A stretch of 59,846 nucleotides of DNA from a virus, in the IMG/VR virus record IMGVR_UViG_3300037502_002383, positions 1-59,846 of that record; one strand, 5' to 3'. Positions 34,741-55,246 of this stretch are shown here, piece after piece. Below the pieces are notes generated by a model. That model was given only the letters and a program-made list of their open reading frames with translations, ran no database searches and had not been told where the DNA came from. Positions within the stretch are counted from its first letter, which is position 1. Every line of letters begins with the position of its first letter. The translations under genes were made by a program, and so were the position numbers.

Positions 34741-35182
34741 GGCTGTTGCGGTTGCACGGGACCTGTGTCTCGTGTTCGAGGGCATGTACCTCAAGCCGTA
34801 CCTGTGCCCGGCCAACGTGCCGACCATCGGCGTCGGTTCGACTTTCTACGAGGACGGTACGCGCGTATCGCTGGCTGATCCTGCGATCACTCGCGCGAGA
34901 GCGATGGCGCTACTGGAGTGGGAGTTGAACCACTGTCTGCCCAAGGTCAAGCGGCTGTGCCCAGGCCTGGCGGACTGGGGCGAGCAAGCCGCCGGCGCCA
35001 TCCTCGACTTCGCTTTCAATTGCGGTGTCGGCGCGCTGCAAAGCAGCACGCTGCGCAAGCGCATCAACGCCGACGACGAGGCTGGCGCCAAGGTTGAGCT
35101 TATGCGCTGGACCCGAGGCGGTGGCCGCGTGCTGCCCGGGCTCGTAAAAAGACGCGCGGCAGAGGTGGCGCTGCTGCCATGA
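34730..35182 (+). CDS. Phage endolysin, GH24 lysozyme
   Basis: Start uncertain: GTG 34730 gives 150 aa; a TTG at 34706 gives 158. The catalytic set is E-x8-C-x5-T: FEGMYLKPYLCPANVPTIGV (E17, C26, T32 counted from GTG 34730), where Cys replaces Asp20 of T4 lysozyme as in several phage lysozymes. LLEWELNHCLPKVKRLCP and AAGAILDFAFNCGVGALQSS complete the fold, ending RWTRGGGRVLPGLVKRRAAE. Cleaves peptidoglycan. No signal anchor is evident. No Rz/Rz1 spanin was recognised nearby. Confidence 0.9.
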   Translation: MEGKAVAVARDLCLVFEGMYLKPYLCPANVPTIGVGSTFYEDGTRVSLADPAITRARAMALLEWELNHCLPKVKRLCPGLADWGEQAAGAILDFAFNCGVGALQSSTLRKRINADDEAGAKVELMRWTRGGGRVLPGLVKRRAAEVALLP

Positions 35183-35221
35183 ACCGATCTAGAATTTCCG
35201 GGGGCAAACCGCCTCGCTCAA

Positions 35222-35251
35222 AGGGCCGCACACCAGCGGCCCTTTTGCTTT
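35222..35251 (+). terminator. Rho-independent terminator after lysis genes
   Basis: agggccgc, loop acacca, gcggccct (35222-35243) then tttgctttt. It separates tail/lysis genes from the ejection-type genes. Confidence 0.85.
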
Positions 35252-35261
35252 TGGAGTAGCC

Positions 35262-37367
35262 ATGGCTACGGCAAACAACCCCTTTGACCTGAACAACGTG
35301 ACCGGCGCCAACATGGCGCAGGCCGCCGCTGGTGCGACAACTGCAGCCACCGCCACTGGCTACAACCCGTTCACCGCGGGCGCGACCGGCTACGACTCCG
35401 CGTCAGCGGGATCGACGGGGTACAACGCCTCGACGATGACCGCGGGGGGCTATGACGCCGCTTCCGCTGGCGCCTCGGGCTACAACGCCGCGCAAGGCAC
35501 TTCGGCCAACTACAACGCCACCGACGCGCAGTCCGCGGGCTACGACGCCGCCAGCCGCACGTCTCAGGGCTATAACGCCGCCACGGCGGGCGCTTCTGGC
35601 TACAACGCATCCAGCGCGGGGTCCCAGGGCTACAACGCCATGAACGCAGGCGCGTCCGGCTACAACGCGGCTAATCGCACGGCGCAGGGCTACAACGCTA
35701 CCGACGCGAACTCAACCGGCTACAGCGCCAATGACATCAACGCCACCAACTGGGATGTGAACAACAACCAGACGGTGCAGGGGCAACTGCAAGGCATTCT
35801 TGCGGCTAACTCTCCGCTGCTGCGCATGGCGCAGGCCAACGCGCTGGCGCAGATGAACCGTCGCGGGTTGATGAACTCCAGCATGGCGATCGGCGCTGCG
35901 CAGGGCGCGCTGTACGGCGCTGCGATGCCCATCGCACAAGCGGACGCGAGCCTGTACGCCAACCAAGGTCAGTACAACGCAACCGCGGCCAACAACGCTG
36001 CGGCGGCCAACGCCACAGCGCGCAACCGGGCGGCAGAGTTTGGGGCAAGCGCCAGCAACACCGCTTCGCTCACCAATGCGGGCGCGCGCAACCGGGCTGC
36101 GGAATTTGGGGCAAGCGCCAGCAACACCGCCTCTTCCGAGAATATGGGGGCCACCAACAGGGCGCTGGAATTCACGGCGGGAGCAGGCAACACTGCGGCA
36201 CTTGCCAACGCAGCGGCAGGCAACCGGGCGCTGGAGTTCACCTCGGGCGCGGCAAACACCGCGGCTTTGGCCAACTCAGCGGCAGCCAACGAAGCAGCTC
36301 GCTTTGGCGCCGGTGCCTCCAACACCGCCGCCTTGGCTAACGCGGCTGCGGGCAACCGTGCCGCCGAGTTCACCTCGGGCGCGGCCAACACCGCCGCGTC
36401 GGAGAACATGGGCGCGCAAAACCGCGCACTGGAGTTCACCGCCGGCAACAGGCAGACCACCAACCTGGCCAACGCTTCGGCGGCAAACGAGGCGGCGCGG
36501 TTCAACGCCGGCAACCTGCAGGACATGACGCTGGCCAACACTGCGGCCAGTAACCGTGCGCTGGAGTTTGGGGCGTCGGCGGGCAACACCGCGGCGCTGG
36601 CCAACGCTGGAGCTCAAAACGAGGCGGCCGCGTTCGGTGCCAACGCCACCAACCAAGCCGCCGCGTCGAATCAAGCGGCGTCCAACCGGGCGGCTGAGTT
36701 CGGCGCTGGCGCGGCCAACACGGCTTCGCTCTCCAACGCGGCAGCCGACAACCGCGCCCTGGAGTTCAGCGCCGGCGCGACCAACACGGCTGAGCTGACC
36801 AACGCAGCAGCGGCCAACGAGGCTGCACAGTTCGGGGCCTCCGCGACCAATCAGATGTCTCGCGACTACGCGGGCACGGTCAACGCGATGGTCAGCAAGA
36901 TGCTCGACCAGTCGATGTCTTACGCACTGGCCAACGCTGACAACCAGACCAAGGTCGAGCTGCAGAACATTGACGCCTCCACGCGCAAGGACCTGGCCGC
37001 CACTGAGGCCACGTTCAAGACCGCGATGCAGGCGTCGGCCAGCGCCAACGACATCTTCCAGCAGGTCACAAAGAACATCTCGGACATCATGATGAATCCA
37101 GACCTCAGCGCCGATCCGGCGGATGGGGCTAATGGGATAAGCCCGAAGCAAGCGGCGGTCAACGCGCAGAAGGCCTACCTCAGCGCGTCCATGAGCGTGC
37201 TGGAGACGACGTCCGGCATCAAGGGTTTGAAGGACCTGCTGAACTTCGACACCGACGTCAACATTCCCGGCAGCGGGGGCGGCGATGGTGATACCGGCGG
37301 TGGCGATACCGGCGGCGGTGGTGATACCGGCGGTGGCAGCAACTGGGTTGAAAGCTCTGGGCCGTAA
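35262..37367 (+). CDS. Doubly repetitive virion protein (10-aa and 22-aa repeats)
   Basis: 701 aa, very rich in Ala, Asn and Gly. Residues 33-162 are 13 tandem 10-residue units of the form GYNAxxAGAx with no indels. After a unique helical section (GILAANSPLLRMAQANALAQ) residues 244-529 are 13 tandem 22-residue units, each two 11-residue halves (NTAALANAAAG then NRALEFTSGAA), again with no indels, suggesting a long hendecad helix. The C-terminal part is normal helical sequence (MVSKMLDQSMSYALANADNQ) with a Gly/Asp tail (GGGDTGGGGDTGGG). Its place before other internal-type proteins suggests an ejection or tail-length protein. I know no function. Confidence 0.8.
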   Translation: MATANNPFDLNNVTGANMAQAAAGATTAATATGYNPFTAGATGYDSASAGSTGYNASTMTAGGYDAASAGASGYNAAQGTSANYNATDAQSAGYDAASRTSQGYNAATAGASGYNASSAGSQGYNAMNAGASGYNAANRTAQGYNATDANSTGYSANDINATNWDVNNNQTVQGQLQGILAANSPLLRMAQANALAQMNRRGLMNSSMAIGAAQGALYGAAMPIAQADASLYANQGQYNATAANNAAAANATARNRAAEFGASASNTASLTNAGARNRAAEFGASASNTASSENMGATNRALEFTAGAGNTAALANAAAGNRALEFTSGAANTAALANSAAANEAARFGAGASNTAALANAAAGNRAAEFTSGAANTAASENMGAQNRALEFTAGNRQTTNLANASAANEAARFNAGNLQDMTLANTAASNRALEFGASAGNTAALANAGAQNEAAAFGANATNQAAASNQAASNRAAEFGAGAANTASLSNAAADNRALEFSAGATNTAELTNAAAANEAAQFGASATNQMSRDYAGTVNAMVSKMLDQSMSYALANADNQTKVELQNIDASTRKDLAATEATFKTAMQASASANDIFQQVTKNISDIMMNPDLSADPADGANGISPKQAAVNAQKAYLSASMSVLETTSGIKGLKDLLNFDTDVNIPGSGGGDGDTGGGDTGGGGDTGGGSNWVESSGP
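35358..35747 (+). repeat. 13 x 30-bp tandem repeat (10-aa units)
   Basis: In-frame 30-bp units each beginning Gly/Asn-Tyr (or Trp after the last). Codon choice varies between units, so the protein period is selected, not the DNA. Confidence 0.85.
35991..36848 (+). repeat. 13 x 66-bp tandem repeat (22-aa units)
   Basis: In-frame 66-bp units with exact period. Adjacent units share long DNA stretches (e.g. gcaagcgccagcaacaccgc near 36045 and 36111), indicating recent duplication or conversion for some. Confidence 0.85.
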
Positions 37368-37759
37368 TGACCCGAGAGCAGTTGCTTGAGCCGATCGTTG
37401 CATCGATCCGGCGCGGGCTACCTGTGTCCCGGTTCGAGGTGTTGCGCTATCTGAACGACTGGGCCGTGACGCCGCTGATGCAAGACGATCGCCACGTCGG
37501 CACCCTGGTCAGCAAGGGCACCGAGGTTCATGTGGCCTTGATGCCAGGTTGGCGGCCGGCGGGGAGCGCACGTCGCCTCATCCGCTCGTTGCTGCAGCCG
37601 CTGTTTGAGCGGCATGAGTTTCTGACCACGCGCGTGCGACACGGGCGCGTGAGCGAGAAGCGATTCGTGGAGCGACTGGGGTTCTCGCCGACGTGGCGTG
37701 ACGGGGACCACCAGTACTTCATCTTGGGGCAGCTGCCCTTTGAAAGGAAAGACGCATGA
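37367..37759 (+). CDS. GNAT-like small virion-region protein, 130 aa
   Basis: MTREQLLEPIVASIRRGLPV, DDRHVGTLVSKGTEVHVALM, GSARRLIRSLLQPLFERHEF and KRFVERLGFSPTWRDGDHQY FIL. The pattern of a beta strand, a basic GSARRLIRSLL turn and a C-terminal E-R-L-GF-xxT resembles an acetyl-CoA GNAT fold. Such small proteins are found among phage internal or assembly genes. An actual acetyltransferase activity is unproven. Overlaps the previous stop by one base. Confidence 0.6.
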   Translation: MTREQLLEPIVASIRRGLPVSRFEVLRYLNDWAVTPLMQDDRHVGTLVSKGTEVHVALMPGWRPAGSARRLIRSLLQPLFERHEFLTTRVRHGRVSEKRFVERLGFSPTWRDGDHQYFILGQLPFERKDA

Positions 37760-38871
37760 AGCACTACCTCTCGCGCGCACAGACGCGGGCGGCGTGGGCC
37801 GTAGAGATGCCTGCGGGCGACCCCACCGGTGGGGCCGCCTACGGCGAGCGCAGAGACCCGGTGAGCGCGATCGTGTCCATCGCCACGATGGTTGGCACCG
37901 GCGGGGCGGTGATGGCTGGCACGGCCACACTCATGCAGGGCTTGGCGTTTGCCGGGGCGGCTATCGGTCTTGTCGGCAACGTGACCGGCAACAAGACGCT
38001 GAGCAAGATCGGCATGGTGACCGGCCTTGCCGGTGGTGTCGGCATGCTCGCAGAAGGCGTGCTCGGCACGACGATCGGCGGCACGATGGGTGAGACGTTT
38101 GGCTACGGTGCCGGTGCGGCGCCCGTGGCCAACGCGGGCCCAAGTTTTGCCGCCGACAGCCTGTCGCAGACCGCCAACCCAGCCGCGGCGGTGCAACCCC
38201 CAGTGGTTGACGGCGTGATGCAGGGCGGCGCGCAGACGATGCCGGTTGACCCGGGTTCGGCGGCGCTTACCCGCCCGCTGGACGCCGCTGGTCCGGCTGC
38301 GCAGAACCTCAACGCCGGGCCGGGTGCAGGGGCGCCTAGCCTGAACGCTGGCCCAGGGGCTCCGGCTCCGGGCGCAACCGCACCGCTGGCCAGCACGCCC
38401 GTCGGCGCGGACCCGTTCACCGCCACCACACCCACAGGGCTTCGTGCGCTGCCCGGCGACACGGGGGCCATGTCGCCAGGCTTCCTCGACTCGCTCAAGG
38501 CGGGCAACTACATGGACGCGGCCAAAGCGGCTGGCACCAACCTGATGGACCTGAGCAAGTCCAACCCTGGCGCGGCCATGATGCTGGGCAATGCGGCGTC
38601 TGGTGTGGCCAACTGGCTGAGCGGCAAGACCGACGCAGAGATCGCCGCGCTTGAAGCGCAGACCGGCTACAACAACGCCGCAGCGTTGAGAATCCAAGAA
38701 GTGATTGCGCAAGAGAAGCGCCGGCGCGCCAACCTGAATCAGAGCTGGGCTGGTGTGAACACGCAGATCCGCGCCAACCCGAACGCGCAGGTCACCATGC
38801 CGTGGGCGCAGCAGGCCGCCCCGGCTCCCGCACCCGGCCTGATCGCAGGCGCACGCCCACCTGGCGGTTGA
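37756..38871 (+). CDS. Glycine-zipper putative ejection protein, 371 aa
   Basis: Residues about 35-115 are hydrophobic with repeated small residues (IVSIATMVGTGGAVMAGTAT, GLAFAGAAIGLVGNVTGNKT, GMVTGLAGGVGMLAEGVLGT), a glycine-zipper membrane-inserting pattern. A Pro/Ala-rich linker (LNAGPGAGAPSLNAGPGAPA) follows, then a helical C-terminus (AQTGYNNAAALRIQEVIAQE). This resembles phage internal proteins that insert into the host membrane on DNA entry. Function inferred from composition and location. Confidence 0.65.
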   Translation: MKHYLSRAQTRAAWAVEMPAGDPTGGAAYGERRDPVSAIVSIATMVGTGGAVMAGTATLMQGLAFAGAAIGLVGNVTGNKTLSKIGMVTGLAGGVGMLAEGVLGTTIGGTMGETFGYGAGAAPVANAGPSFAADSLSQTANPAAAVQPPVVDGVMQGGAQTMPVDPGSAALTRPLDAAGPAAQNLNAGPGAGAPSLNAGPGAPAPGATAPLASTPVGADPFTATTPTGLRALPGDTGAMSPGFLDSLKAGNYMDAAKAAGTNLMDLSKSNPGAAMMLGNAASGVANWLSGKTDAEIAALEAQTGYNNAAALRIQEVIAQEKRRRANLNQSWAGVNTQIRANPNAQVTMPWAQQAAPAPAPGLIAGARPPGG

Positions 38872-38881
38872 GGAGAAACAC

Positions 38882-39382
38882 ATGGCCACCGGACTCATTC
38901 AAGACGAGATGGCGCGCCCGGAGGGTGAAGAGCTCACCACCGAGGCCGTCACGCAGAACATCCAGATGCCGCCTGAGCTGCAGCGCGCCTACGACCGCGT
39001 GGTCGTGGCGGGCATGAAGATCATGTTCGGCAAGGACTCGCACAAGCTGATGCTCAAGGAGCTGCAGCGCGAAGGCCCTCTTGCGCAGAAGCTTGGGCAA
39101 GGCATCGCCGGCCTGGTGCTGCTGCTTTACAAGGAGTCCAACGGCACGATGCCGCCGGCGGTGATGATCCCTGCCGGGGTGTACTTGACCATGCAGGCGG
39201 TGGACTTCATGCGCCAGGCCGATTTGGAGAAGGTCACGAACCAGGACATCGGCGATGCCATGGAAATCATGGTCAGCACGATCATGGAGAAGTTCGGCGT
39301 TGCGCCGGAGAAGCTCCAGTCGGTGCTGAGCCAGTTCGACAACCAGAACGTGGATGCTGCCGCGCAGCAGATGGGGGTCTGA
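38882..39382 (+). CDS. Hypothetical helical protein, 166 aa
   Basis: MATGLIQDEMARPEGEELTT, ELQRAYDRVVVAGMKIMFGK, LGQGIAGLVLLLYKESNGTM, VYLTMQAVDFMRQADLEKVT, and MEIMVSTIMEKFGVAPEKLQ. Helical with two mildly hydrophobic segments. It lies among presumed internal virion genes. Unknown function. Confidence 0.65.
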   Translation: MATGLIQDEMARPEGEELTTEAVTQNIQMPPELQRAYDRVVVAGMKIMFGKDSHKLMLKELQREGPLAQKLGQGIAGLVLLLYKESNGTMPPAVMIPAGVYLTMQAVDFMRQADLEKVTNQDIGDAMEIMVSTIMEKFGVAPEKLQSVLSQFDNQNVDAAAQQMGV

Positions 39383-39383
39383 C

Positions 39384-40190
39384 ATGGGGCTGAGCGGACT
39401 CATCGCCGGCGCGCTGGGCGGCGCGGCCAAAGGCTACACCGAAAACGCCGAGGCAGAGAACAAGAAGCGCATCCAGCTGGACCTGCAAAAGGAGCTGATG
39501 GCGCTGGAGGAGGAGAAGGCTCTGCGCGTGGACGAGGTCCGGCGCAACCGCGACTTCGCCGACAAGAAGCGCGATATCCAGGAACTCGACCCGTTGCGCA
39601 TCCAGTCGAAGGTTGGCGAGACCACGGCTGTCGGTGGCGCCACCACGGACGTCATGGTCGGCCGCGAGGACGCGCTGCGCCCCGGCAAGGCGGCCACTGC
39701 CAGAGCCGAGGCCGATGCCCGTGCCGATGCTGAGCGCGCCGCTCTGGGTGCTTACGCCGGCGATCCCAACGCCCGCGCTGGCACTCGTGCCAAGGCCGCT
39801 GACAGCGAGACGTCTTCGCAGCGGGCAGCCGCCGCGGCGTCTGTTGCCAACGCCAACCTGACCAACCTGTCGATCAAAGAGCGGCAGGCGGTCACCGATC
39901 TGCAGCGAGAGTACGAGAACCCGAACACGAGCGACGCTCGTCGTGCGGAGATCATGCGCTCGCTCACCGTGCGCGGCGTCGTCAAACCTGGCGAGTTCGA
40001 CACGGAGAAGGTCACGACCGAGAGAACGGGCGACGACGGCAGCACGGTCAAGACCGAGCGCACGCAACGGCGCACGGGTGCTTCGGCTCCAGCGGCTCAG
40101 TACAAAGAGGGTGACACCGTGACGCTGAAGAACGGCGGCAAGGGCGTGGTCATCAACGTCGACGGCAAGCTGATGGTCAAACCGCTCTGA
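39384..40190 (+). CDS. Coiled-coil virion-region protein, 268 aa
   Basis: Start at ATG 39384 (MGLSGLIAGALGGAAKGYTE) with a small hydrophobic N-terminus, followed by a long charged coiled coil (KRIQLDLQKELMALEEEKAL, DEVRRNRDFADKKRDIQELD), an Ala/Asp-rich middle and a C-terminal KOW-like DTVTLKNGGKGVVINVDGKL. Likely an internal or scaffold-like protein of the ejection complex. Confidence 0.6.
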   Translation: MGLSGLIAGALGGAAKGYTENAEAENKKRIQLDLQKELMALEEEKALRVDEVRRNRDFADKKRDIQELDPLRIQSKVGETTAVGGATTDVMVGREDALRPGKAATARAEADARADAERAALGAYAGDPNARAGTRAKAADSETSSQRAAAAASVANANLTNLSIKERQAVTDLQREYENPNTSDARRAEIMRSLTVRGVVKPGEFDTEKVTTERTGDDGSTVKTERTQRRTGASAPAAQYKEGDTVTLKNGGKGVVINVDGKLMVKPL

Positions 40191-40200
40191 GGATCCCCTG

Positions 40201-43200
40201 ATGGCCACGTACCTGCCGCTGTCCGAGATCGCTCCGCCCGAGGGCCTGCTCCCGCTGGATCAAGCAGTGGGGCTGTGGACGCCCGAGAAACAGAAGCCTG
40301 AAGGCGCGTTTGCTCGCGCCGGGCGGGTGTTGCAAGATCCTGACGGTGGGGTGCTGCCGGCGGTTGGTTCTCTGATTGCTTCGGCTTTGCCAGAGGGCGG
40401 CGACAAACGCACCGCTGGAGGCTTTGCTGCGGACACTGCGGTGGACGTGACCCGGGGTGTCGTCAGCCTCGGCCAAGGGGTGGTCGGCCTCGGCAACCTC
40501 ATCACGTTCGGCGGCCTGGGCAAGGTGCTGGAGACGGTCGGCTACAGCGGTGACCAGACGCAGCAATTCCTGTCGGGGCTGTACACCGCTGACCGCCAGA
40601 TCGCGCAGCGCAACGTGCAGGAAGCCGAAGGTTTCGTTGACACGCTCAAGGCGCTGGCGGTCAACCCCAGCGAGTTGTTCGGCACCATCGTCCAGGCGGT
40701 GCCCCAGACCGTGGGCGCCGGCGCGGCTGGTGGAGCCATCGTGCGCCAACTGCTGCCGCAAGCCGGCAAGGCTGCTGCCGCAGCCGGATTGGTCGGCGAC
40801 GACGCCACCAAGTTCATCAGCAACTTCGTCGCCAAGCGGGCCGCCGTCGCAGCCGGTGCGACCGAAGGCGCCCTGACCGCGGGCGGCATCGCGGAGTCCG
40901 GGCGCGAGGCCGGCCAGGATTACACGACCTACGCTCCGGCCGCACTGGCTGGCGGAGCATTGACTGCGGCTATTGGCGCGGGCAGCGCAAGCGTGGCACG
41001 CCGCATCGGCTTGGGCGACGTGGAAGCCGACATCGCGATGCGCGGTGCCGGCGTTGCACCGTCTGGCGTGAAGGGTGGCCTGATCAGCCGCACGGCCAAG
41101 GGCGCGCTGCAAGAGGGCGTGTTGGAAGAGGCGCCGCAATCGTTCCAAGAAGAGCTCTTCACCCAGGCTGCCACCGGTCGACCGTTCAACCTGGAGGAGG
41201 CCGGCAGTGCTGCGGCCACCGGCTTGGCGGCCGGCGCGGGCATGGGCGGCTTCAACGCCGCGCTCTCGCGCTCGCGTCCGCCCGAGCAGCCCGCACCCGC
41301 CCCCGCACCGCCGTCCGCACTGCAGGACCTGGCCGACGCCAACACCGAGCTCACCGCTGCGGCGGACGCATACCTGCAGGAGCTGCGCCAGGCGCCGACC
41401 GTTGACCAGGCCATTGAGGCGTTCGGCAAGGCTGCGCAGGTGCCGGTGGCTCCGGCTGAGCTGACCATGGACGAGCGGCTGGCCGCCGCTGAGGCCCCGG
41501 GCCTGCTCGGCCGTCAGCTCGACATCCAGCGCCAGCTCGATCAAGCCGCCGGCTTGGACGTCGCGCCGACCGCTGAGCGTCCTACAGCCCCGGCGCTCGC
41601 GCCCCTGCCGCAGCCCGCGGCTCAGCGCAACATGGAGCTGATGGGCCAAGCTGCGCAGGCCGGCACGGAGTTCGAGCGCCAGCAGGCGCTTGAGCAGGCC
41701 AAGGTCTCGCTGCCCACTCCGGCACCGGGCCCGGCCGCGCGCTACGCCGACCTCACACCGATGGACGCGCGCCAGGCGCAGCAGCGGCTGACCGTGCTGC
41801 AGGAGCAGACCGGCACCCCGCTGAGCTTGGAGATCGTCCCGCACCCGGCGCAGAAGGAGCGCTTTGCGATCGGCCGGCGCGAGCTGCCGGTCAGCGCCGC
41901 CGACCTGGAGATGCCGGACCTGCGCGCCCCTGTGGCGCCTGCGCAAGCCCAGGCGCAGATCGAGTCTGCAGCCCTGGCCGGCAAGGAGGTGCAGCGCCGC
42001 GCAGAGGACGCGCCGCGCCAGCAGATGATCAGCCGGGCGATGGCCAACATCGAAGCCCGCGGCGGAGTGGCCTCGCCCTACGAGGCGGAGCTGCTGCGCT
42101 CGGCCAACCTGGGCCAGCCGTACAACAGCATTGATCCGAACCTTGGCCGCCCGGCTTCTCAGGACCAGCTGCTGACCGCAGCCACCGGCATCTCGGTTGG
42201 CTCCGAGGCGGGCCTGGGCTACGGCGCCCGGTCCTCGACCACCGTGCCCCCGGCTCCTGCGCCGTTCGCGTACACCCCTGACGCACAGGGCCGCAAGCGC
42301 GCCGAGCCGGCGGAGCAAGCTGCGCCGGAGGTCGACATCGTCGGCACGTTCGTGCAGCAGATGCGCGAGACCAACACGCCCGCAGCCCGGGCGTTCGTGC
42401 AAGACTTCGAGGCCGGGCGGATCTCGCCGGCTGAGGTGCAAAGCGCGCTGGACATCCAGCGTGGTCTGCCGCCCAGCTCGCAAGAGCGCATCGAGGGTGC
42501 GGCCGCAGCAGCGCCGGCGCCCGCCACGCCGACCGGCGTGCAGGTGGAGACGTCCAGCGCCAGAGTCGAGAACCCCGCACTGCGCGAGGCAGTGGAGCTG
42601 TACGGCAACCGCCCGCTCACGCAGCAAGACCTGACGGTGGAGGGCGCCACAGCGCGCATCGCTCGCGCCGGCCAGCAGGCTCCGGCACCGCAGGTCACGG
42701 CAAGCGGCATTGAGATCGCCCAGAGCGAAGACCTGACGCCGCGCGGGGCGTTCCGCGGGCGCAACGAGGCGATCCGTGCCGGCAATAACCTGCCGAGGCC
42801 GACGATGGTCGGCGGCCGCCGTGCCGCGTCGCTCACGGACGCTGATCTGCAGCAGACGGCCAACGACATGGGCCTGCCGGCCATCACTCGCCGCGGCGCT
42901 CAGATCGAGCTGCTGGCGCGCCAACAGACCGAGCGGGCAGCTGCCCCCGCCCAGCCGGCGGCTGACGATGTCAGTGCGCGTCTGCAGGCCGCTGCGGCTC
43001 AAGCCACCAAGCCGCTGGACCAGCCTGCGCCGGGGCGCATCATCACCTCTGGGGTGAAGATGTCCACCGCTCGGGCGGCGGTGCCGGGTAGCACGCTGAC
43101 CGTCAACGACCAGGGCACCGACCACCAGCTTCGCGTAGTGGACAGCTCCACGCTCGGCGAGCCGGGCAAGATGATCCAGCAGGTGGCTCGGATCTTCGGC

Positions 43201-46200
43201 AAGAAGGTGGTCGTGTTCGAGTCCGACACCGCGCAGGTGGACGGCTTCGTGCAGGACAACGACGACTCCACGATCTACCTGAGCGCGAAGTCCAGCATCT
43301 CGCCGCTGGCGGTGTTCGGCCACGAGCTCACGCACCTGATCAAGCGCGACAGCCCCGAGGCCTACAGCGCGTTGGAGGCGGTGGTCAGGGCCAACCTGAA
43401 GCCTGAGGGCATGGCCGGGTTCGAGCAAGACTACGGCCAGGGCGCGAACCTGGAGGAGCTCGCCAGCGATCTGGTGGGCAACCGGTTCCAGGAGGCCGAC
43501 TTCTGGAACGGCGTGTTCGAGGACATCGCTGCCAAGAACCCCGAGCAGTCGCGCGGCATCATCACCCGGCTGGCCGCGTCGGTGAACAAGGCGGTCAACG
43601 CCTTCATCCGCGTGGTGCGCGGCCAGACGTTCAACGCTGACCAGTACGTCAAGGACCTGACCGCGGTGAAGGCCGCGGTGCGCACCGCAGTAAGCCAGTA
43701 CGCGCAGCAGCGCCGCGAGCCGGCCATGCGGCTGGACGCCGAGCTCATGCGTCAGGAGAGCCAGGTCGACTTGACCGCGGGCTCTCGCATGCCCGCGAGC
43801 GCAAGTGTGGCTGGCGAAACGGCAGAGCCGATGGGCATCACGGCAAGCGCGACTCGCGCAGCGCCGGACAGCGCCGCTGCTGAGAACCGGATGGCGATTG
43901 TCGTCGGCGCCAAGCCGGGCGAGTTCAACTGGAACTTCACCCGCTCGGACCTGACGCCGCCCCCGTTCACCGCGCCAACTCAGTACGGACCACGCTTGGA
44001 GAAGATCGGCGAAGGCGTCTACGAGATCCTGCGCTCCAACGGGTTCAAGAAACTGGCTGAGGAAGCGTTCGGGATCAAGGGGCTGCGGGTGGCCCCGCTG
44101 CACGGGTCTTGGTTGAACAAGCCGGAGCCCAGCTTTGCGCTGTACGCAGAAGGGCTGACGTTCGAGCAGGCCGACGATCTGTCGAAGATGCTGGGCTTTG
44201 CCTTCGCGCAAGACGCGACGGTTGTCTTCCAGCCTACTTCTCAAGAGTCGCCTGGAGAGATACCTGCGGTCTACATCGGCGGCAAGAAGAAACTCACCGA
44301 TGAGCAGATGAAAGCAGTGCTATCATCTGCTCAGGCAGAGGGTATTGACTACAGCTCGACTGCCGACGGCAAAGCGGTTCGTTTCCTGCACTTTGGAGAT
44401 GATGCCGGCTTAGCTGAGCTGATGCAGAAGACGGCTCGCATTGCGAGTAATGCCGGTCTTGGCGCACCGAGGGTGGTCTACGTAAGGAGCCAGTTGAATG
44501 AAGCGGACAGCTATACCAAGGGAACGGGTGGAAGCGCTGGCCAAGCAGTATGGCTTGGAAGTGGCGAAGCCGGACGACCCGGTCTATTCCGAAGGACCGT
44601 CGATCATGTTCTCGTCCCGTACGCAAAAGTCGTCGGAGGCGAAGGTTATCGATTTGCCGTATCGCGATTTGCCCAGCGATTCGGACTCTCAGCAGAACAG
44701 CAAGGACTGATTCGCCAGGCGCTGCTGCCCAAGAGCGGCGCCGACAAGGCAACCATTGACGTTGCCTCGGGCAAGGTCAAGCTCGACATTAAGCCCACCG
44801 GGGCCCGAAACAAGATCTCGGTTTCCGACATTCTCTGGGCGCTCCAGAACCGCTCCGCGCAAGCCGGCCTCATTGAGCCGGGCGACTACAGCGACCAAGC
44901 CCGCAAGCTGATTGCTGAAGCAATTGCGGAAGAAGTTCTTCACAACATCAATGACACGTCAACCGGCAAGTCCGCCATCGGCTGGTACGACCGTGCGCTG
45001 AAGGCTGCCAAAGAGAAGTACGCGGCAATCTTCCCTGAGCTCAAGACTGATCGCAATCGCGAGCTCGTGTTTGATGCGGTGCTTGGCATCACCAGCCAGG
45101 GCAACGACGTCTTCAGCAACTCGTTGTTTGCGGGCCGCGTCTACGAGATGACCACTCGTCAGAACATGACCCTGGGGCAAGCCGTTGCCGCGCTCAAGGG
45201 CACGTTCGGCGGCGAGACCGTGGCAATCGAGAACAACATCCTCAAGCTGGAGGAGTTGATCAACCGCAACGGCTACGACGCCATGCGCAAGTTCTTCAAT
45301 AAGAAAGACACGGTCTCCAACATCAACGCTAAGCTGCGAGCAGATTCGACCCTGTTCTACAAGAACAAACCCCTCTCGGTTGACGGCGCCGCAGATCAGC
45401 GGGTCACCGGTTGGATGGTGTTTGGGCCAAAGATCGGCTCGTTCATCAACAACCTGCACGGCGACTACAGCACCCTGACCGCAGACCTGTGGTTCAGCCG
45501 CACCTGGAACCGGATTCTCGGATTCTCGTTTGTGCATGCTCCGGCTCGCGAGGCCGAGCAGTACCAGACGTTCGTGTCTGCTCTGCTTGCCGAGTACGGA
45601 TTTGCCAAAGACAGAGAAGGCCCGATCCAACCCAAGCGAATCAGCAAGACCGGCGAAGCGGAAATGCCGGAGTTCGGAACGGACGCAGCTGATCTGACAG
45701 ACGCAGAGGTTGAGCAGATCGTTGCCGACCCCGACGCCGCGCTGAACTACGCAACGGAGCTCGAAGCGATCTACCGCAAGGGTGGCTACAAGGCCAAGAC
45801 GGATCTGCGCCGCGCTGCCAAGAACTGGATCGAGAACCGCACAGACCCCGTTGCGTTGCCGCGTACCGACTGGGAGCGAGACTTCCAGCAGCGCACTGTT
45901 GAGACAGCTCAGAAAATCATCAAGCGCCGAACTGGCCAAGAAATCACCATCGCCGACATACAAGCCGCGCTTTGGTACTACGAGAAGGACAACTTGTTCA
46001 AGCTGCTGGGTGGCACGAACAAGAAGAGCGAGGCTGCGGACTACGCAGGGGCGGCCGATGAAACTCTGAGGGCGTACCAAGCTGGGGACCTCTTCTACGC
46101 CAAGACTGACGACCGGTACGTGTTCGGCAGCAAGGGCAGCTACCGGGTGCAGGCATCGCGCTCAAGAGAACGCGCCGCAACCGACATTCCGCTGGCAGAA

Positions 46201-46347
46201 TTGCGCGGCCGCAAGGTCGCCATGCAGGTTCGCGTCGAGTCCACCGGCGAGACCGGCACGCTGACCATGGACGCCGGCGATTCGCTCACCGACATCAACG
46301 AGCGAGAGACCGCCATGCAACGCCTGCTGGAGTGCGTGCGCAAATGA
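40201..46347 (+). CDS. Giant polyvalent-type virion protein with zincin domain
   Basis: 2048 aa as one open frame. Residues about 60-330 are Gly/Ala-rich with hydrophobic segments (ETVGYSGDQTQQFL..., VPQTVGAGAAGGAIVRQLLP). A long Ala/Pro/Gln linker region holds short helical motifs. A metallopeptidase domain carries FGHELTHLI (HExxH, residues 1041-1045) and LEELASDLVG (Glu1085/1086), a gluzincin-like set. The C-terminal 540 residues are globular (KSAIGWYDRALKAAKEKYAA, TSQGNDVFSNSLFAGRVYEM). Such polyvalent proteins enter the host with phage DNA and act on it. Codon use between 44498 and 44710 does not fit this frame; see the nested gene. Confidence 0.8.
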   Translation: MATYLPLSEIAPPEGLLPLDQAVGLWTPEKQKPEGAFARAGRVLQDPDGGVLPAVGSLIASALPEGGDKRTAGGFAADTAVDVTRGVVSLGQGVVGLGNLITFGGLGKVLETVGYSGDQTQQFLSGLYTADRQIAQRNVQEAEGFVDTLKALAVNPSELFGTIVQAVPQTVGAGAAGGAIVRQLLPQAGKAAAAAGLVGDDATKFISNFVAKRAAVAAGATEGALTAGGIAESGREAGQDYTTYAPAALAGGALTAAIGAGSASVARRIGLGDVEADIAMRGAGVAPSGVKGGLISRTAKGALQEGVLEEAPQSFQEELFTQAATGRPFNLEEAGSAAATGLAAGAGMGGFNAALSRSRPPEQPAPAPAPPSALQDLADANTELTAAADAYLQELRQAPTVDQAIEAFGKAAQVPVAPAELTMDERLAAAEAPGLLGRQLDIQRQLDQAAGLDVAPTAERPTAPALAPLPQPAAQRNMELMGQAAQAGTEFERQQALEQAKVSLPTPAPGPAARYADLTPMDARQAQQRLTVLQEQTGTPLSLEIVPHPAQKERFAIGRRELPVSAADLEMPDLRAPVAPAQAQAQIESAALAGKEVQRRAEDAPRQQMISRAMANIEARGGVASPYEAELLRSANLGQPYNSIDPNLGRPASQDQLLTAATGISVGSEAGLGYGARSSTTVPPAPAPFAYTPDAQGRKRAEPAEQAAPEVDIVGTFVQQMRETNTPAARAFVQDFEAGRISPAEVQSALDIQRGLPPSSQERIEGAAAAAPAPATPTGVQVETSSARVENPALREAVELYGNRPLTQQDLTVEGATARIARAGQQAPAPQVTASGIEIAQSEDLTPRGAFRGRNEAIRAGNNLPRPTMVGGRRAASLTDADLQQTANDMGLPAITRRGAQIELLARQQTERAAAPAQPAADDVSARLQAAAAQATKPLDQPAPGRIITSGVKMSTARAAVPGSTLTVNDQGTDHQLRVVDSSTLGEPGKMIQQVARIFGKKVVVFESDTAQVDGFVQDNDDSTIYLSAKSSISPLAVFGHELTHLIKRDSPEAYSALEAVVRANLKPEGMAGFEQDYGQGANLEELASDLVGNRFQEADFWNGVFEDIAAKNPEQSRGIITRLAASVNKAVNAFIRVVRGQTFNADQYVKDLTAVKAAVRTAVSQYAQQRREPAMRLDAELMRQESQVDLTAGSRMPASASVAGETAEPMGITASATRAAPDSAAAENRMAIVVGAKPGEFNWNFTRSDLTPPPFTAPTQYGPRLEKIGEGVYEILRSNGFKKLAEEAFGIKGLRVAPLHGSWLNKPEPSFALYAEGLTFEQADDLSKMLGFAFAQDATVVFQPTSQESPGEIPAVYIGGKKKLTDEQMKAVLSSAQAEGIDYSSTADGKAVRFLHFGDDAGLAELMQKTARIASNAGLGAPRVVYVRSQLNEADSYTKGTGGSAGQAVWLGSGEAGRPGLFRRTVDHVLVPYAKVVGGEGYRFAVSRFAQRFGLSAEQQGLIRQALLPKSGADKATIDVASGKVKLDIKPTGARNKISVSDILWALQNRSAQAGLIEPGDYSDQARKLIAEAIAEEVLHNINDTSTGKSAIGWYDRALKAAKEKYAAIFPELKTDRNRELVFDAVLGITSQGNDVFSNSLFAGRVYEMTTRQNMTLGQAVAALKGTFGGETVAIENNILKLEELINRNGYDAMRKFFNKKDTVSNINAKLRADSTLFYKNKPLSVDGAADQRVTGWMVFGPKIGSFINNLHGDYSTLTADLWFSRTWNRILGFSFVHAPAREAEQYQTFVSALLAEYGFAKDREGPIQPKRISKTGEAEMPEFGTDAADLTDAEVEQIVADPDAALNYATELEAIYRKGGYKAKTDLRRAAKNWIENRTDPVALPRTDWERDFQQRTVETAQKIIKRRTGQEITIADIQAALWYYEKDNLFKLLGGTNKKSEAADYAGAADETLRAYQAGDLFYAKTDDRYVFGSKGSYRVQASRSRERAATDIPLAELRGRKVAMQVRVESTGETGTLTMDAGDSLTDINERETAMQRLLECVRK
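44498..44710 (+). CDS. Nested 70-aa gene within the giant ORF (+1 frame)
   Basis: Starts ATG 44498 with a strong SD (aaggag, 44484-44489) 8 bp upstream. MKRTAIPRERVEALAKQYGL and EVAKPDDPVYSEGPSIMFSS look like ordinary protein, with a basic helix and then a polar tail. Third codon positions in this frame are mostly G or C, as in the rest of the phage, whereas the giant frame in the same stretch has many A/T thirds. It may be a real overlapping gene, or part of the large protein displaced by two compensating indels. The C-terminal SDSDSQQNSKD is low complexity. Confidence 0.5.
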   Translation: MKRTAIPRERVEALAKQYGLEVAKPDDPVYSEGPSIMFSSRTQKSSEAKVIDLPYRDLPSDSDSQQNSKD

Positions 46348-51906: not shown

Positions 51907-52208
51907 TCGACACCCGCGCCGTTGCCCTTCAGGGCATCGGCTTTGGCCCGCTGGCCGTTGCCACGCTGGGCTATCTGGTCGAGGCCGAGCAGCCTTCGGC
52001 AATACCTCCTGACCTGGCGTGGATCAACGCCAACGCCCGCGCCTACGGCAAGCGGCGCACAGCCGGGTATGGGCGGGAATACGGGGATGCCGAAGAGATG
52101 CGGCGCAGCATTGCGCTGTTGCGGCAGATCGAGGAAGAAGATGAAATCGTGCTGGCGCTGGTGATGTCCGCCGTGCCGCTGCTAGGAGCTGACCAATGGC
52201 GACAATGA
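51903..52208 (+). CDS. Hypothetical protein, 101 aa
   Basis: GTG start overlapping the previous stop. MIDTRAVALQGIGFGPLAVA then LGYLVEAEQPSAIPPDLAWI, RAYGKRRTAGYGREYGDAEE, and a C-terminal hydrophobic helix (IVLALVMSAVPLL). It overlaps the next gene by 13 bp. Unknown. Confidence 0.55.
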   Translation: MIDTRAVALQGIGFGPLAVATLGYLVEAEQPSAIPPDLAWINANARAYGKRRTAGYGREYGDAEEMRRSIALLRQIEEEDEIVLALVMSAVPLLGADQWRQ

Positions 52209-55200
52209 AGATGACCGGGTGCATGAAGATCGTCTCGCGCATGAGCGAGGCCGATCAGGACGCGCTGCTGTCGCGCTTGGATGCGTACCAAGCCGACGGC
52301 GTCCCGGCCGAGCGTGCGCAGCTGATGGCCGCGCAGGACATGCTGGCCGAGATCCAGGGCGAGCGCGACCAGCTCTTCAACCTGCTGCGCGAGCAACACC
52401 CCGACCTGTTCTCGGTCGCTGAGGAGCCTCAGCCCGTCGCCGAAGAACCCCAGCCTGCCACCGCCGAGAACCCCGACATCACCGCCAGCCGGCGCCGCAC
52501 CATCTTCGGCAGCCCTGCGCCGCTGGCCAACTGGACGATGCCTGCGGAGACCAAGTTCGACGACTGGATCTACAAGCTGCAGGACAAGCAGGTGGACATG
52601 AAGCGGGTGATCGAGGCGATCAGCCGCAACGGCGGACTGTCCGACCAGTGGAACGCCTACCTGCAAGAGGAGCTCTACCACGGGCGCAGCGCCAAGGCGA
52701 CCAAGGACTTCGGCCTGAAGGAAGTCCGGCCGCTGATGGAGGAGCTGGAGAAGTCAAAGGTCGGCCTCGCTGACTTCGAGGAGTACCTGCACAACCGCCA
52801 CGCCGAGGAGCGCAACACCCAGATCGCCAAGGTCAACCCGGCCATGCCCGACGGCGGCTCGGGTATCGACACCGCGGATGCGCGAGCCTATCTCGCAGCA
52901 CTGGACCCGGCCAAGCGCCGCACCTACGAGGCGCTCGCCCGTCGCGTGGACGCGATCTCCCAGGGCACGCGCGAGCTGCTGGTGCGCTCGGGCCTGGAGA
53001 CGCAGGACACGATCAACCAGTGGGAGGGCGCCTACAAGAACTACGTCCCGCTGATGCGCGAGGACCTGGACTACGGGCTGTCCTCGGGCATGGGCACCGG
53101 CAGCGGGTTCAGCGTCAGAGGCCCGGCCAGCCGTCGGGCCACCGGCTCCGACCGGCCCGTGGTGGACATCCTGGCCAACCTGCTCATGCAGCGCGAGCGG
53201 GCGATCGTGCGCGCTGAGAAGACCCGGGTCGGCACCGCGCTGTACGGCCTGGCGCTGCAGAACCCGAACGCGGACTTCTGGCTGCCGGTGGACCCCAAGG
53301 CGATCAAGGACGTGCCCGGCACCATGGCCAAGCTGCAGGCGATGGGGCTGGATCCGATGGACGTGCGCAACATCATGGAGGAGCCGCTGCAGCAGGTGGT
53401 CGATCCGCGCACCGGGCTGGTCACTTACCGCGTCAACGCCAACCTGCGCAACGCCGACAACGTGATGGCCGTGCGGGTCAACGGCGAAGACAAGTTCCTC
53501 TTCTTCAACACCCGCAACGAGCGCGCTGCGCGCATGGCCGCGTCGCTGAAGAACCTGGATGCCACCAGCCTCGAAGGGCTGCTCAACGTGTCGGGCAAGA
53601 TCAGCCGCTACTTCGCCGCGATCAACACCCAGTACAACCCAGTGTTCGGCGCGATCAACCTGCTGCGTGACGTGCAGGGCGCCGCTGTGAACCTCAGCAG
53701 CACCCCGCTCGCAGGCGAGCAAGCGGCTGTGCTCAAGGGCGTGGGCGGCGCCACCCTCGGAATCTATCGCTCCCTGCGCGCCGATAGATCCGGTCAATCG
53801 GGACCACCCGGCAGCTGGTCTGCGCTGTGGGAGGAGTTCCAGCGCGAGGGTGGGCAGACGGGTTTCCGCGACATGTTCCGCACGAGCGAGGACCGGACCC
53901 AGGCGCTGCAGGCCATGCTCGACCCAGCCTCTTGGACCGAGACGAAGTGGGGCAAGATCCTCACCGCTGGGGGCACGCTGAAGGTGCCGCTGGAGGCGGC
54001 GCGCAAGGGCGCTGCCGAGCCGGTCTTCAACTGGCTCTCCGACTACAACGAGACGTTGGAAAACGCGGTGCGCCTGAGCGCCTACAAGGCCGCCAAGGCC
54101 AAGGGCATGACCGCCCAGCAGGCCGCCTCGCTGGCCAAGAACCTGACGGTGAACTTCAACCGCAAGGGCGAGATCGGCACCCAAATGGGCGCGCTCTACG
54201 CCTTCTTCAACGCCAGCGTGCAGGGCACCGCCAGGCTGGCCGAGACGCTCAAGGGCCCGGCCGGCAAGAAGATCCTGGCTGGCGGCCTGCTGCTGGGCAC
54301 CGTCCAGGCGCTGGCCTTGGCCGCCGCGGGCTTCGACGAGGATGAGCCACCAGACTTCATCAAGGAGCGCAACTTGGTGATCCCCACTGGGGACGGCAAG
54401 TACCTCACCTTCCCGATGCCGCTGGGTCTGAACGTCATCCCCAACACCAGTCGGGTGCTGACCGAGTGGGCGCTGTCCGGCGGCAAGGATCCCGGCAAGC
54501 GGTTCGGGCAGATCGTCGGCGCGTTCGCCGACATGTTCAACCCGATCGGCAACGCCGGGCTGTCGGTGCAGACCATCGCCCCGACCTTCGCTGACCCGCT
54601 GGTGGCGCTGGCCGAGAACCGGGACTGGAGCGGCAAGCCGATCGCCAAGGAGGACCGCTCGGGCACCGACCCGACTCCCGGCTACACGCGAGCCAAGGAG
54701 ACGGCGAGCTGGGTGAGCAAGCAGCTGGCTTACTATCTGAACCTGGCCAGCGGCGGCACCAAGTACAAGCCCGGTGGCCTGTCACCCACGCCCGACCAGA
54801 TCGACTACCTGATCGGCCAGGTGACGGGCGGTGTCGGCCGCGAGGTCCTGAAGGTCACGCAGCTCGCCGAAAGCAAGGTGACCGGCGAGGAGCTGCCGAC
54901 CTACAAGGTGCCGATCGCGGGCCGGTTCTACGGCGACACCAAGGAGCAGGCGGCCACCGCCGACCGGTTCTACCGCAACGTGACGACCATCAACGAGCAT
55001 GAGAACGAGATCGAGGGGCGCAAGAAAAACCGCGAGGGTGGGATCCCCGAGTACATCAGGGAGAACCCGGAGGCTCGCCTCGTCACCTTGGCCAACCGCA
55101 TCGAGCGCGACGTGGCCGAGCTGCGCCGCAAAAAGCGTGAGATGCTAGAGAAGGACCGCCCCAAGGAGTCGATCAAGATGATTGAGCTGCAGATCACCCG

Positions 55201-55246
55201 AAAGATGGAGCAGCTCAACGCCCGGGTCGAAGCCCTTCAGGACTGA
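52196..55246 (+). CDS. Large LPD38-like virion protein, 1016 aa
   Basis: An N-terminal helical region (MSEADQDALLSRLDAYQADG) is followed by a long helical body. The segment YFAAINTQYNPVFGAINLLR then DVQGAAVNL, and later YNETLENAVRLSAYKAAKAK plus LTVNFNRKGEIGTQMGALYA FFNASVQG, match the large polyvalent protein-associated domain 38 (LPD38) seen at the ends of phage giant proteins. Hydrophobic KILAGGLLLGTVQALALAAA follows. The C-terminus is a coiled coil (LANRIERDVAELRRKKREML). Likely ejected into the host with DNA. Here it is a separate gene instead of fused to the giant protein. Confidence 0.75.
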   Translation: MATMKMTGCMKIVSRMSEADQDALLSRLDAYQADGVPAERAQLMAAQDMLAEIQGERDQLFNLLREQHPDLFSVAEEPQPVAEEPQPATAENPDITASRRRTIFGSPAPLANWTMPAETKFDDWIYKLQDKQVDMKRVIEAISRNGGLSDQWNAYLQEELYHGRSAKATKDFGLKEVRPLMEELEKSKVGLADFEEYLHNRHAEERNTQIAKVNPAMPDGGSGIDTADARAYLAALDPAKRRTYEALARRVDAISQGTRELLVRSGLETQDTINQWEGAYKNYVPLMREDLDYGLSSGMGTGSGFSVRGPASRRATGSDRPVVDILANLLMQRERAIVRAEKTRVGTALYGLALQNPNADFWLPVDPKAIKDVPGTMAKLQAMGLDPMDVRNIMEEPLQQVVDPRTGLVTYRVNANLRNADNVMAVRVNGEDKFLFFNTRNERAARMAASLKNLDATSLEGLLNVSGKISRYFAAINTQYNPVFGAINLLRDVQGAAVNLSSTPLAGEQAAVLKGVGGATLGIYRSLRADRSGQSGPPGSWSALWEEFQREGGQTGFRDMFRTSEDRTQALQAMLDPASWTETKWGKILTAGGTLKVPLEAARKGAAEPVFNWLSDYNETLENAVRLSAYKAAKAKGMTAQQAASLAKNLTVNFNRKGEIGTQMGALYAFFNASVQGTARLAETLKGPAGKKILAGGLLLGTVQALALAAAGFDEDEPPDFIKERNLVIPTGDGKYLTFPMPLGLNVIPNTSRVLTEWALSGGKDPGKRFGQIVGAFADMFNPIGNAGLSVQTIAPTFADPLVALAENRDWSGKPIAKEDRSGTDPTPGYTRAKETASWVSKQLAYYLNLASGGTKYKPGGLSPTPDQIDYLIGQVTGGVGREVLKVTQLAESKVTGEELPTYKVPIAGRFYGDTKEQAATADRFYRNVTTINEHENEIEGRKKNREGGIPEYIRENPEARLVTLANRIERDVAELRRKKREMLEKDRPKESIKMIELQITRKMEQLNARVEALQD

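Follow-up and report, generated by a model that had tools for sequence, protein, structure and literature searches.

The DNA pilot protein H of bacteriophage phiX174 contains long hendecad helices, which form a 170-Å tube lined mainly by asparagine, glutamine, and arginine residues (PMC7354561). In the podophages T7 and DEV, the helical proteins gp14, gp15, and gp16 (T7) and gp72 and gp73 (DEV) form tunnels and are encoded in multi-protein cassettes beside a giant protein (PMC8954989, PMC10925440). A precedent of a different kind comes from protein design, in which repeat proteins read repeat peptides by superhelical matching, with side chains chosen for each unit (PMC10115654).

The window analyzed here is the whole stretch of 59,846 bases of a virus record from IMG/VR. 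The open reading frame at positions 35262..37367 of its plus strand encodes p701, a protein of 701 residues in which analysis of the repeats reveals two matched arrays. It is likely that p701 carries, within one natural protein, a repetitive peptide together with a repetitive helical reader for it, the two being linked unit by unit through an antiparallel residue code, and that it provides a delivery rod adjustable in 3.3-nm steps by the paired gain or loss of units. The principle of matched arrays appears to be new: a limited check of the literature gave no natural precedent for two different arrays within one chain that have equal counts and unit types in reverse order, and no natural protein is known to us in which two arrays agree both in number and in type.

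Repeat arrays and domains of p701

The first array (residues 33–162, positions 35358..35747, plus strand) consists of 13 consecutive GYNA-type decapeptides with the consensus G-Y-N/D-A-x-x-(A/R/M)-x-x-x, and the second (residues 244–529, 35991..36848, plus strand) of 13 consecutive 22-residue units that are predicted to be helical. The original prediction that the arrays have exact periods of 10 and 22 residues and contain 13 units each without a single indel was reproduced in full, including the coordinates. The autocorrelation of the decapeptide array reaches 0.46–0.53 at lags of 10, 20, 30, and 40 residues, with a maximum of 0.29 in shuffled sequences, and that of the 22-residue array is 0.52 at a lag of 22 and 0.32 at a lag of 11, with a shuffle maximum of 0.24. 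The DNA sequences of the repeat units are on average only 57–60% identical within the arrays. Therefore, the arrays are old and maintained, rather than products of recent slippage. The decapeptides carry Gly1, Tyr2, and Ala4. In the 22-residue units, N1, N7, N12, A14, and F17 are nearly invariant throughout the family, with N1, N7, and N12 present in 93–98% of the units. The arrays are separated by a central domain (residues 171–229, 35772..35948, plus strand) with the motifs TVQGQ...RGLxNSSMAxGA...PIAxxDA, which anchors the register of both, and are followed by a conserved helical C-terminal domain (residues 530–660, 36849..37241, plus strand).

Relatives of p701

Searches of phages and viral contigs by tblastn with full-length p701 gave no match; the failure of direct searches was possibly caused by low-complexity filtering. 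The capsid gene, which has 290 relatives in IMG/VR, provided the way to relatives of the protein, and homologues of p701 differing greatly in size were present in 16 of the 23 capsid-related records that were examined. Additional homologues were obtained by scanning with an alignment of p701 and with the cassette protein p166, and a pattern scan aimed at held-out homologues added no further member of the family. The distance from TVxGQ to PIAxxDA is always 52 residues in close relatives, in which a C-terminal stretch of 63 residues between two anchors is also fixed.

Profile searches of Pfam, PHROGs, and the PDB with p701 returned nothing usable: no Pfam match exceeded the cut-off and the family has no PHROG match of its own. 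It is nearly absent from annotated phages and PHROGs. Array 1 shares its ten-residue period with the decapeptide repeat region PF25296; however, the match (E = 1.7e-8, 34.6 bits) is below the curated cut-off of 45. A Foldseek search with a short homologue gave one clear relative without a function, one weak relative, and otherwise short generic matches. IcmE/DotG was rejected as a relative of p701, because the weak match in the PDB (E = 0.069) covers only an N-terminal portion of the profile that is rich in repeats.

Contigs from MAGs of Prosthecobacter (L247) and Propionibacterium (L246) also carry relatives of p701, and are probably mis-binned phage contigs or prophages. A divergent relative (L172:3833-5923) contains many aromatic units approximately 10.5 residues apart together with a long helix-like array, and its counts are only roughly matched. 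Five records (L126, L127, L128, L129, and L130) encode an alternative version of the protein that has long charged arrays and no decapeptides, and the strongest periods of these arrays are mostly multiples of 11 (22, 33, 55, 77, 88, and 154 residues). The decapeptide strap is thus not essential to every version of the protein.

Equal copy number of the two arrays

Comparison of repeat numbers in relatives, which had been suggested as a check of the original prediction, shows that the two arrays vary one for one. In 28 unique homologues from IMG/VR, the two counts increase jointly, ranging from 3 to 17 units (raw r = 0.995); many of these homologues share ancestry, and the independent weight comes from p701, L213, and the expansions in L219, L227, and L135. 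Phylogenetic contrasts based on a tree of the fixed domains give r = 0.990 and a slope of 0.988 (permutation p ~5e-5). The distances between the conserved anchors in relatives follow d1 = 65+10k and d2 = 104+22k, with (d1,d2) values of (65,104), (85,148), (105,192), (115,214), (125,236), (165,324) in p701, and (205,412), which correspond to 3, 5, 7, 8, 9, 13, and 17 units per array. Sister proteins change both arrays jointly, as in L227 (7,7) versus L219 (8,8) and L152 (4,4) versus L135 (8,7). The exceptions amount to one unit in L135 (8 versus 7) and in L139 (4 versus 5), the latter being incomplete at its 3' end, and several divergent members are off by approximately half a unit to one unit.

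Antiparallel matching of unit types

Decapeptides were assigned to types according to their position 7 (Arg, Met, or other) and 22-residue units according to the presence of Glu (xENx), Gln (xNQ), or neither. Decapeptide i corresponds to 22-residue unit n+1-i, and in p701 the string of types, ooMoooRoooRoo, is the same in the decapeptides and in the reversed 22-residue units. The Met-type decapeptide 3 (GYNASTMTAG, 35418..35447) is paired with the Gln-type unit 11 (NQAAASNQAAS..., 36651..36716), the Arg-type decapeptide 7 (35538..35567) with the Glu-type unit 7 (NTAASENMGAQ..., 36387..36452), and the Arg-type decapeptide 11 (35658..35687) with the Glu-type unit 3 (NTASSENMGAT..., 36123..36188), all on the plus strand. 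The two strings are likewise identical in L213, which has 17 units (oooRMRMRMRMRMRMRo), in L219 (ooMMRRRo), and in L227, L220, and L221, and those of L135 differ by one extra R.

In antiparallel pairing with a shift of 0, which was evaluated for 11 proteins with L139 and L135 excluded, Arg is matched to Glu in 20 of 20 cases and Met to Gln in 11 of 12 (the proteins contain 14 Gln units); the type rules were first spotted by eye, partly on the sequences tested, and a class-free scan agrees with them. None of 100,000 within-protein permutations reached the observed matching. Parallel pairing and shifted registers were rejected since they score lower, the next best for Arg–Glu being parallel with a shift of −2 (15/20). 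Regarding the two excluded proteins, Arg stays with Glu in L139 if counting of the register starts at the central domain, and one R unit is out of register in L135. The class-free scan of mutual information over all 10 × 22 = 220 pairs of positions identified d7-h8 (z = 12) and d7-h5 and d7-h6 (z = 11), and the four highest pairs, which also include d7-h4, have z values of 9–12, compared with a null maximum of 6.0. A weaker signal of d1 with h17/h18 (z ~5.5–5.9) is near the null maximum; points chosen after the scan give a slope within the unit close to −2, the value that an antiparallel strand with the same pitch would produce. The pairing of the two arrays, antiparallel and in register, can be considered very likely. 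The view of the original prediction that the arrays are two independent systems has to be abandoned, because copy numbers and unit types together form one matched system.

It might be argued that the matched counts reflect a mutation process, co-duplication or gene conversion, rather than structure, since whole units are gained or lost in both arrays, and L213 was apparently expanded by two-unit blocks. However, a constant and unique domain of approximately 80 residues separates the arrays, and one tandem duplication therefore cannot enlarge both of them. Furthermore, the matching runs in reverse order and connects two types of units that have no common sequence, which makes a mutational origin extremely improbable.

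Predicted structure of the proposed composite rod

The AlphaFold2 model of the p701 monomer contains helices formed by residues 209–400 and 418–520, and in that of a 335-residue homologue (L215:1578-2582), the shortest complete one with equal counts, a helix of residues 108–291 continues into the C-terminal domain. Together with the spacing d2, which equals 5 mod 11 in 13 of 13 relatives, the predicted helix bears out the assignment of array 2 as a hendecad helix. By contrast, array 1 of p701 is modeled as a coil with pLDDT of ~35, and the decapeptides of the homologue form a low-confidence coil; the expectation that structure prediction of the monomer would yield regular folds thus holds for array 2 and fails for array 1. 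The coupling of 10 to 22 residues nevertheless favors the earlier suggestion that array 1 is extended rather than globular. The rise per residue is 1.5 Å in a helix and 3.3 Å in an extended chain, and therefore 22 helical residues and 10 extended residues each span approximately 33 Å, in agreement with a strand placed in register along a helix. The computed lengths of the rods range from 10 to 56 nm across the family.

In the proposed arrangement, the 22-residue units would form a straight hendecad α-helix with a length of 33 Å per unit, the central RGLxNSSMA domain would turn the chain back, and the N-terminal decapeptides would return along the helix as an extended antiparallel strand, in register, with one decapeptide per 22-residue unit. 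Position 7 of the decapeptide would be placed against positions 4–8 of the 22-residue unit and set the unit type, so that Arg would pair with Glu6, Met with Gln8, and Ala with Leu5 or other neutral units. Contacts of the asparagines with the backbone of the strand and packing of Tyr against Phe are guesses. The pairing may be intramolecular or may join the subunits of a helical barrel. If the contact is true, p701 reveals a simple code by which an extended peptide is placed on one helix, and supplies ready-made a modular rod whose length can be selected. It would also allow a clear test of the way in which podophages that infect uncultured bacteria cross the cell envelope. A structural contact would then be readable from the copy number and type of repeats where structure prediction yields only coil.

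The coil predicted for array 1 is also compatible with arrays that do not touch and are each fitted to a third partner, for example the packaged DNA or a different ejected protein, in which case their lengths would track each other indirectly. This would account for the equal lengths but not for antiparallel matching of types at the level of residues, and the lengths of the neighboring cassette proteins do not follow the repeat count. Such an indirect relationship is very unlikely.

Genome context and probable role of the cassette

Genes encoding terminase, portal, N4-type capsid, S74 fiber, and lysozyme are located upstream of p701, which is situated beyond the S74 fiber and lysis genes. A terminator-like hairpin is present between the lysozyme gene and p701 (35220..35245, plus strand), as had been noted; however, the one match found compares with 3.7 expected in shuffled sequences, and the hairpin by itself thus lacks statistical support. 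The capsid and portal match those of podovirus/N4-type phages, and a long tail that could be measured is therefore probably absent. Because of this kinship, and because the arrays vary between 3 and 17 units among relatives found largely through capsids that are 92–99% identical, identification of p701 as a tail tape-measure protein was rejected. Of the needle- or conduit-like ejection role and tail-length role originally envisaged, the latter, with its fixed ruler, is unsupported, whereas ejection is plausible and a conduit may be inferred.

The paired arrays could instead build an external rod, such as an appendage, fiber stalk, or tail needle. Lengths of 10–56 nm and the position of the gene beyond the fiber and lysis genes are compatible with this, and fast changes in length among close phages would suit a surface structure. 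However, profile searches detected no receptor-binding or chaperone domain at either end of p701, and the gene is co-inherited not with the fiber module but with the genes of a hydrophobic protein and of the giant protein of polyvalent type. A location outside the particle is accordingly improbable.

The gene order p701-p130-p371-p166-p278-p2048 is conserved in relatives, and all of these genes are on the plus strand. The small protein p130 (37367..37759) stands where two other cassettes have a GNAT acetyltransferase, p371 (37756..38871) is conserved and has a glycine-rich hydrophobic N-terminal third, p166 (38882..39382) is well conserved, and p278 (39354..40190) is followed by the giant protein p2048 (40201..46347). 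The assignment of p130 itself as a GNAT protein was rejected, because p130 itself gave no match in Pfam and only in vB_Pun_Y3 and record G001 does the syntenic gene encode a GNAT protein; the comparison of p130 with T7 gp13 was not significant. The HELTH motif of p2048 is zincin-like, and the middle part of the protein is rich in alanine, proline, and glutamine. A homologue of p2048 with 3169 residues (L121:8075-17581) contains the polyvalent protein domain LPD38 and DUF7178, and polyvalent proteins are thought to enter the host with the injected DNA (PMC5512222). Elsewhere in the window, a protein of 1016 residues (52196-55246) matches C-terminal parts of giant phage proteins (phrog_14770 and phrog_616) and also DarB-like antirestriction. 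The cassette of the cultured Pseudoalteromonas phage vB_Pun_Y3 is arranged similarly, includes a GNAT acetyltransferase, and has a giant protein that is DdrB-like; its first gene encodes a simpler p701 homologue recognizable by the central domain.

Comparison with record G001 (L127) shows that the cassette has been exchanged as a block covering positions 35182..41266, which spans p701 through p278 and extends into the N-terminal part of p2048. Identity between the DNA of the two records is 89% as far as the lysozyme gene extends and reaches 91–96% again inside p2048; the DNA between these flanks, including the first ~355 codons of p2048, has no nucleotide match. In place of this DNA, G001 encodes a p701 relative of 887 residues, which lacks decapeptides and has a different 11-periodic array, followed by a GNAT protein. 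The exchange of the block between close phages suggests that its products are physical partners.

It is reasonably probable that p701 is a structural podophage protein, the arrays of which form one composite rod that is probably located inside the capsid and ejected. Acting as an internal, ejected component of the virion would be the most likely role, because p701 is the first gene of a syntenic cassette that includes the giant polyvalent-type protein and is swapped as a block between closely related phages. A conduit-type function after ejection is slightly favored: upon infection, the rods, the co-inherited hydrophobic protein, and the giant protein would probably form or brace a conduit that would pass the DNA and the giant protein. 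Alternatively, p701 could be an internal scaffold or core protein that helps to package the giant protein and has no role in a channel, given that it is linked to the giant protein and exchanged along with its N-terminus. However, gp14–gp16 of T7 and gp72/gp73 of DEV are internal before ejection and form channels afterwards (PMC8954989, PMC10925440). The two roles are thus not exclusive, and a function as scaffold or core alone is unlikely.

Comparison with known systems

The p701 cassette resembles those of T7 and DEV in combining several proteins, including helical ones, with a giant protein; however, the corresponding papers do not describe matched tandem arrays, as in p701, for the ejection proteins of these phages (PMC8954989, PMC10925440). 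Similarity between the profile of the p701 family (A5) and T7 gp14 was not detected by hhalign (probability 0.2%), nor was it between p371 and T7 gp14 (probability 0.1%) or N4 gp52. The central RGLxNSSMA domain is homologous to proteins of vB_Pun_Y3 and MW202426 (hhalign probability 97%), in which the gene order of the cassette is the same (vB_Pun_Y3) or similar (MW202426). Unlike p701, these two proteins lack the decapeptide array and regular 22-residue units, and their function is unannotated.

The 22-residue units of p701 share with phiX174 H the hendecad repeat, and the predicted helix carries amide or guanidinium residues at fixed positions, with asparagines at positions 1, 7, and 12, which does not imply that they face a lumen. 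PhiX174 is an unrelated single-stranded DNA phage, the helix of p701 is known as a prediction for the monomer, and protein H as described has neither a paired second array nor a matched copy number. As in designed readers and armadillo repeats, the sequences place reader repeats in one-to-one register with the units of an extended peptide. Those readers are designed or bind separate ligands, whereas p701 carries both arrays in one natural chain, and its reader is apparently a single continuous helix. Protein H of phiX174 provides the closest functional picture for the helix of p701, and the designed superhelical-matching binders the closest one for the pairing of its arrays.
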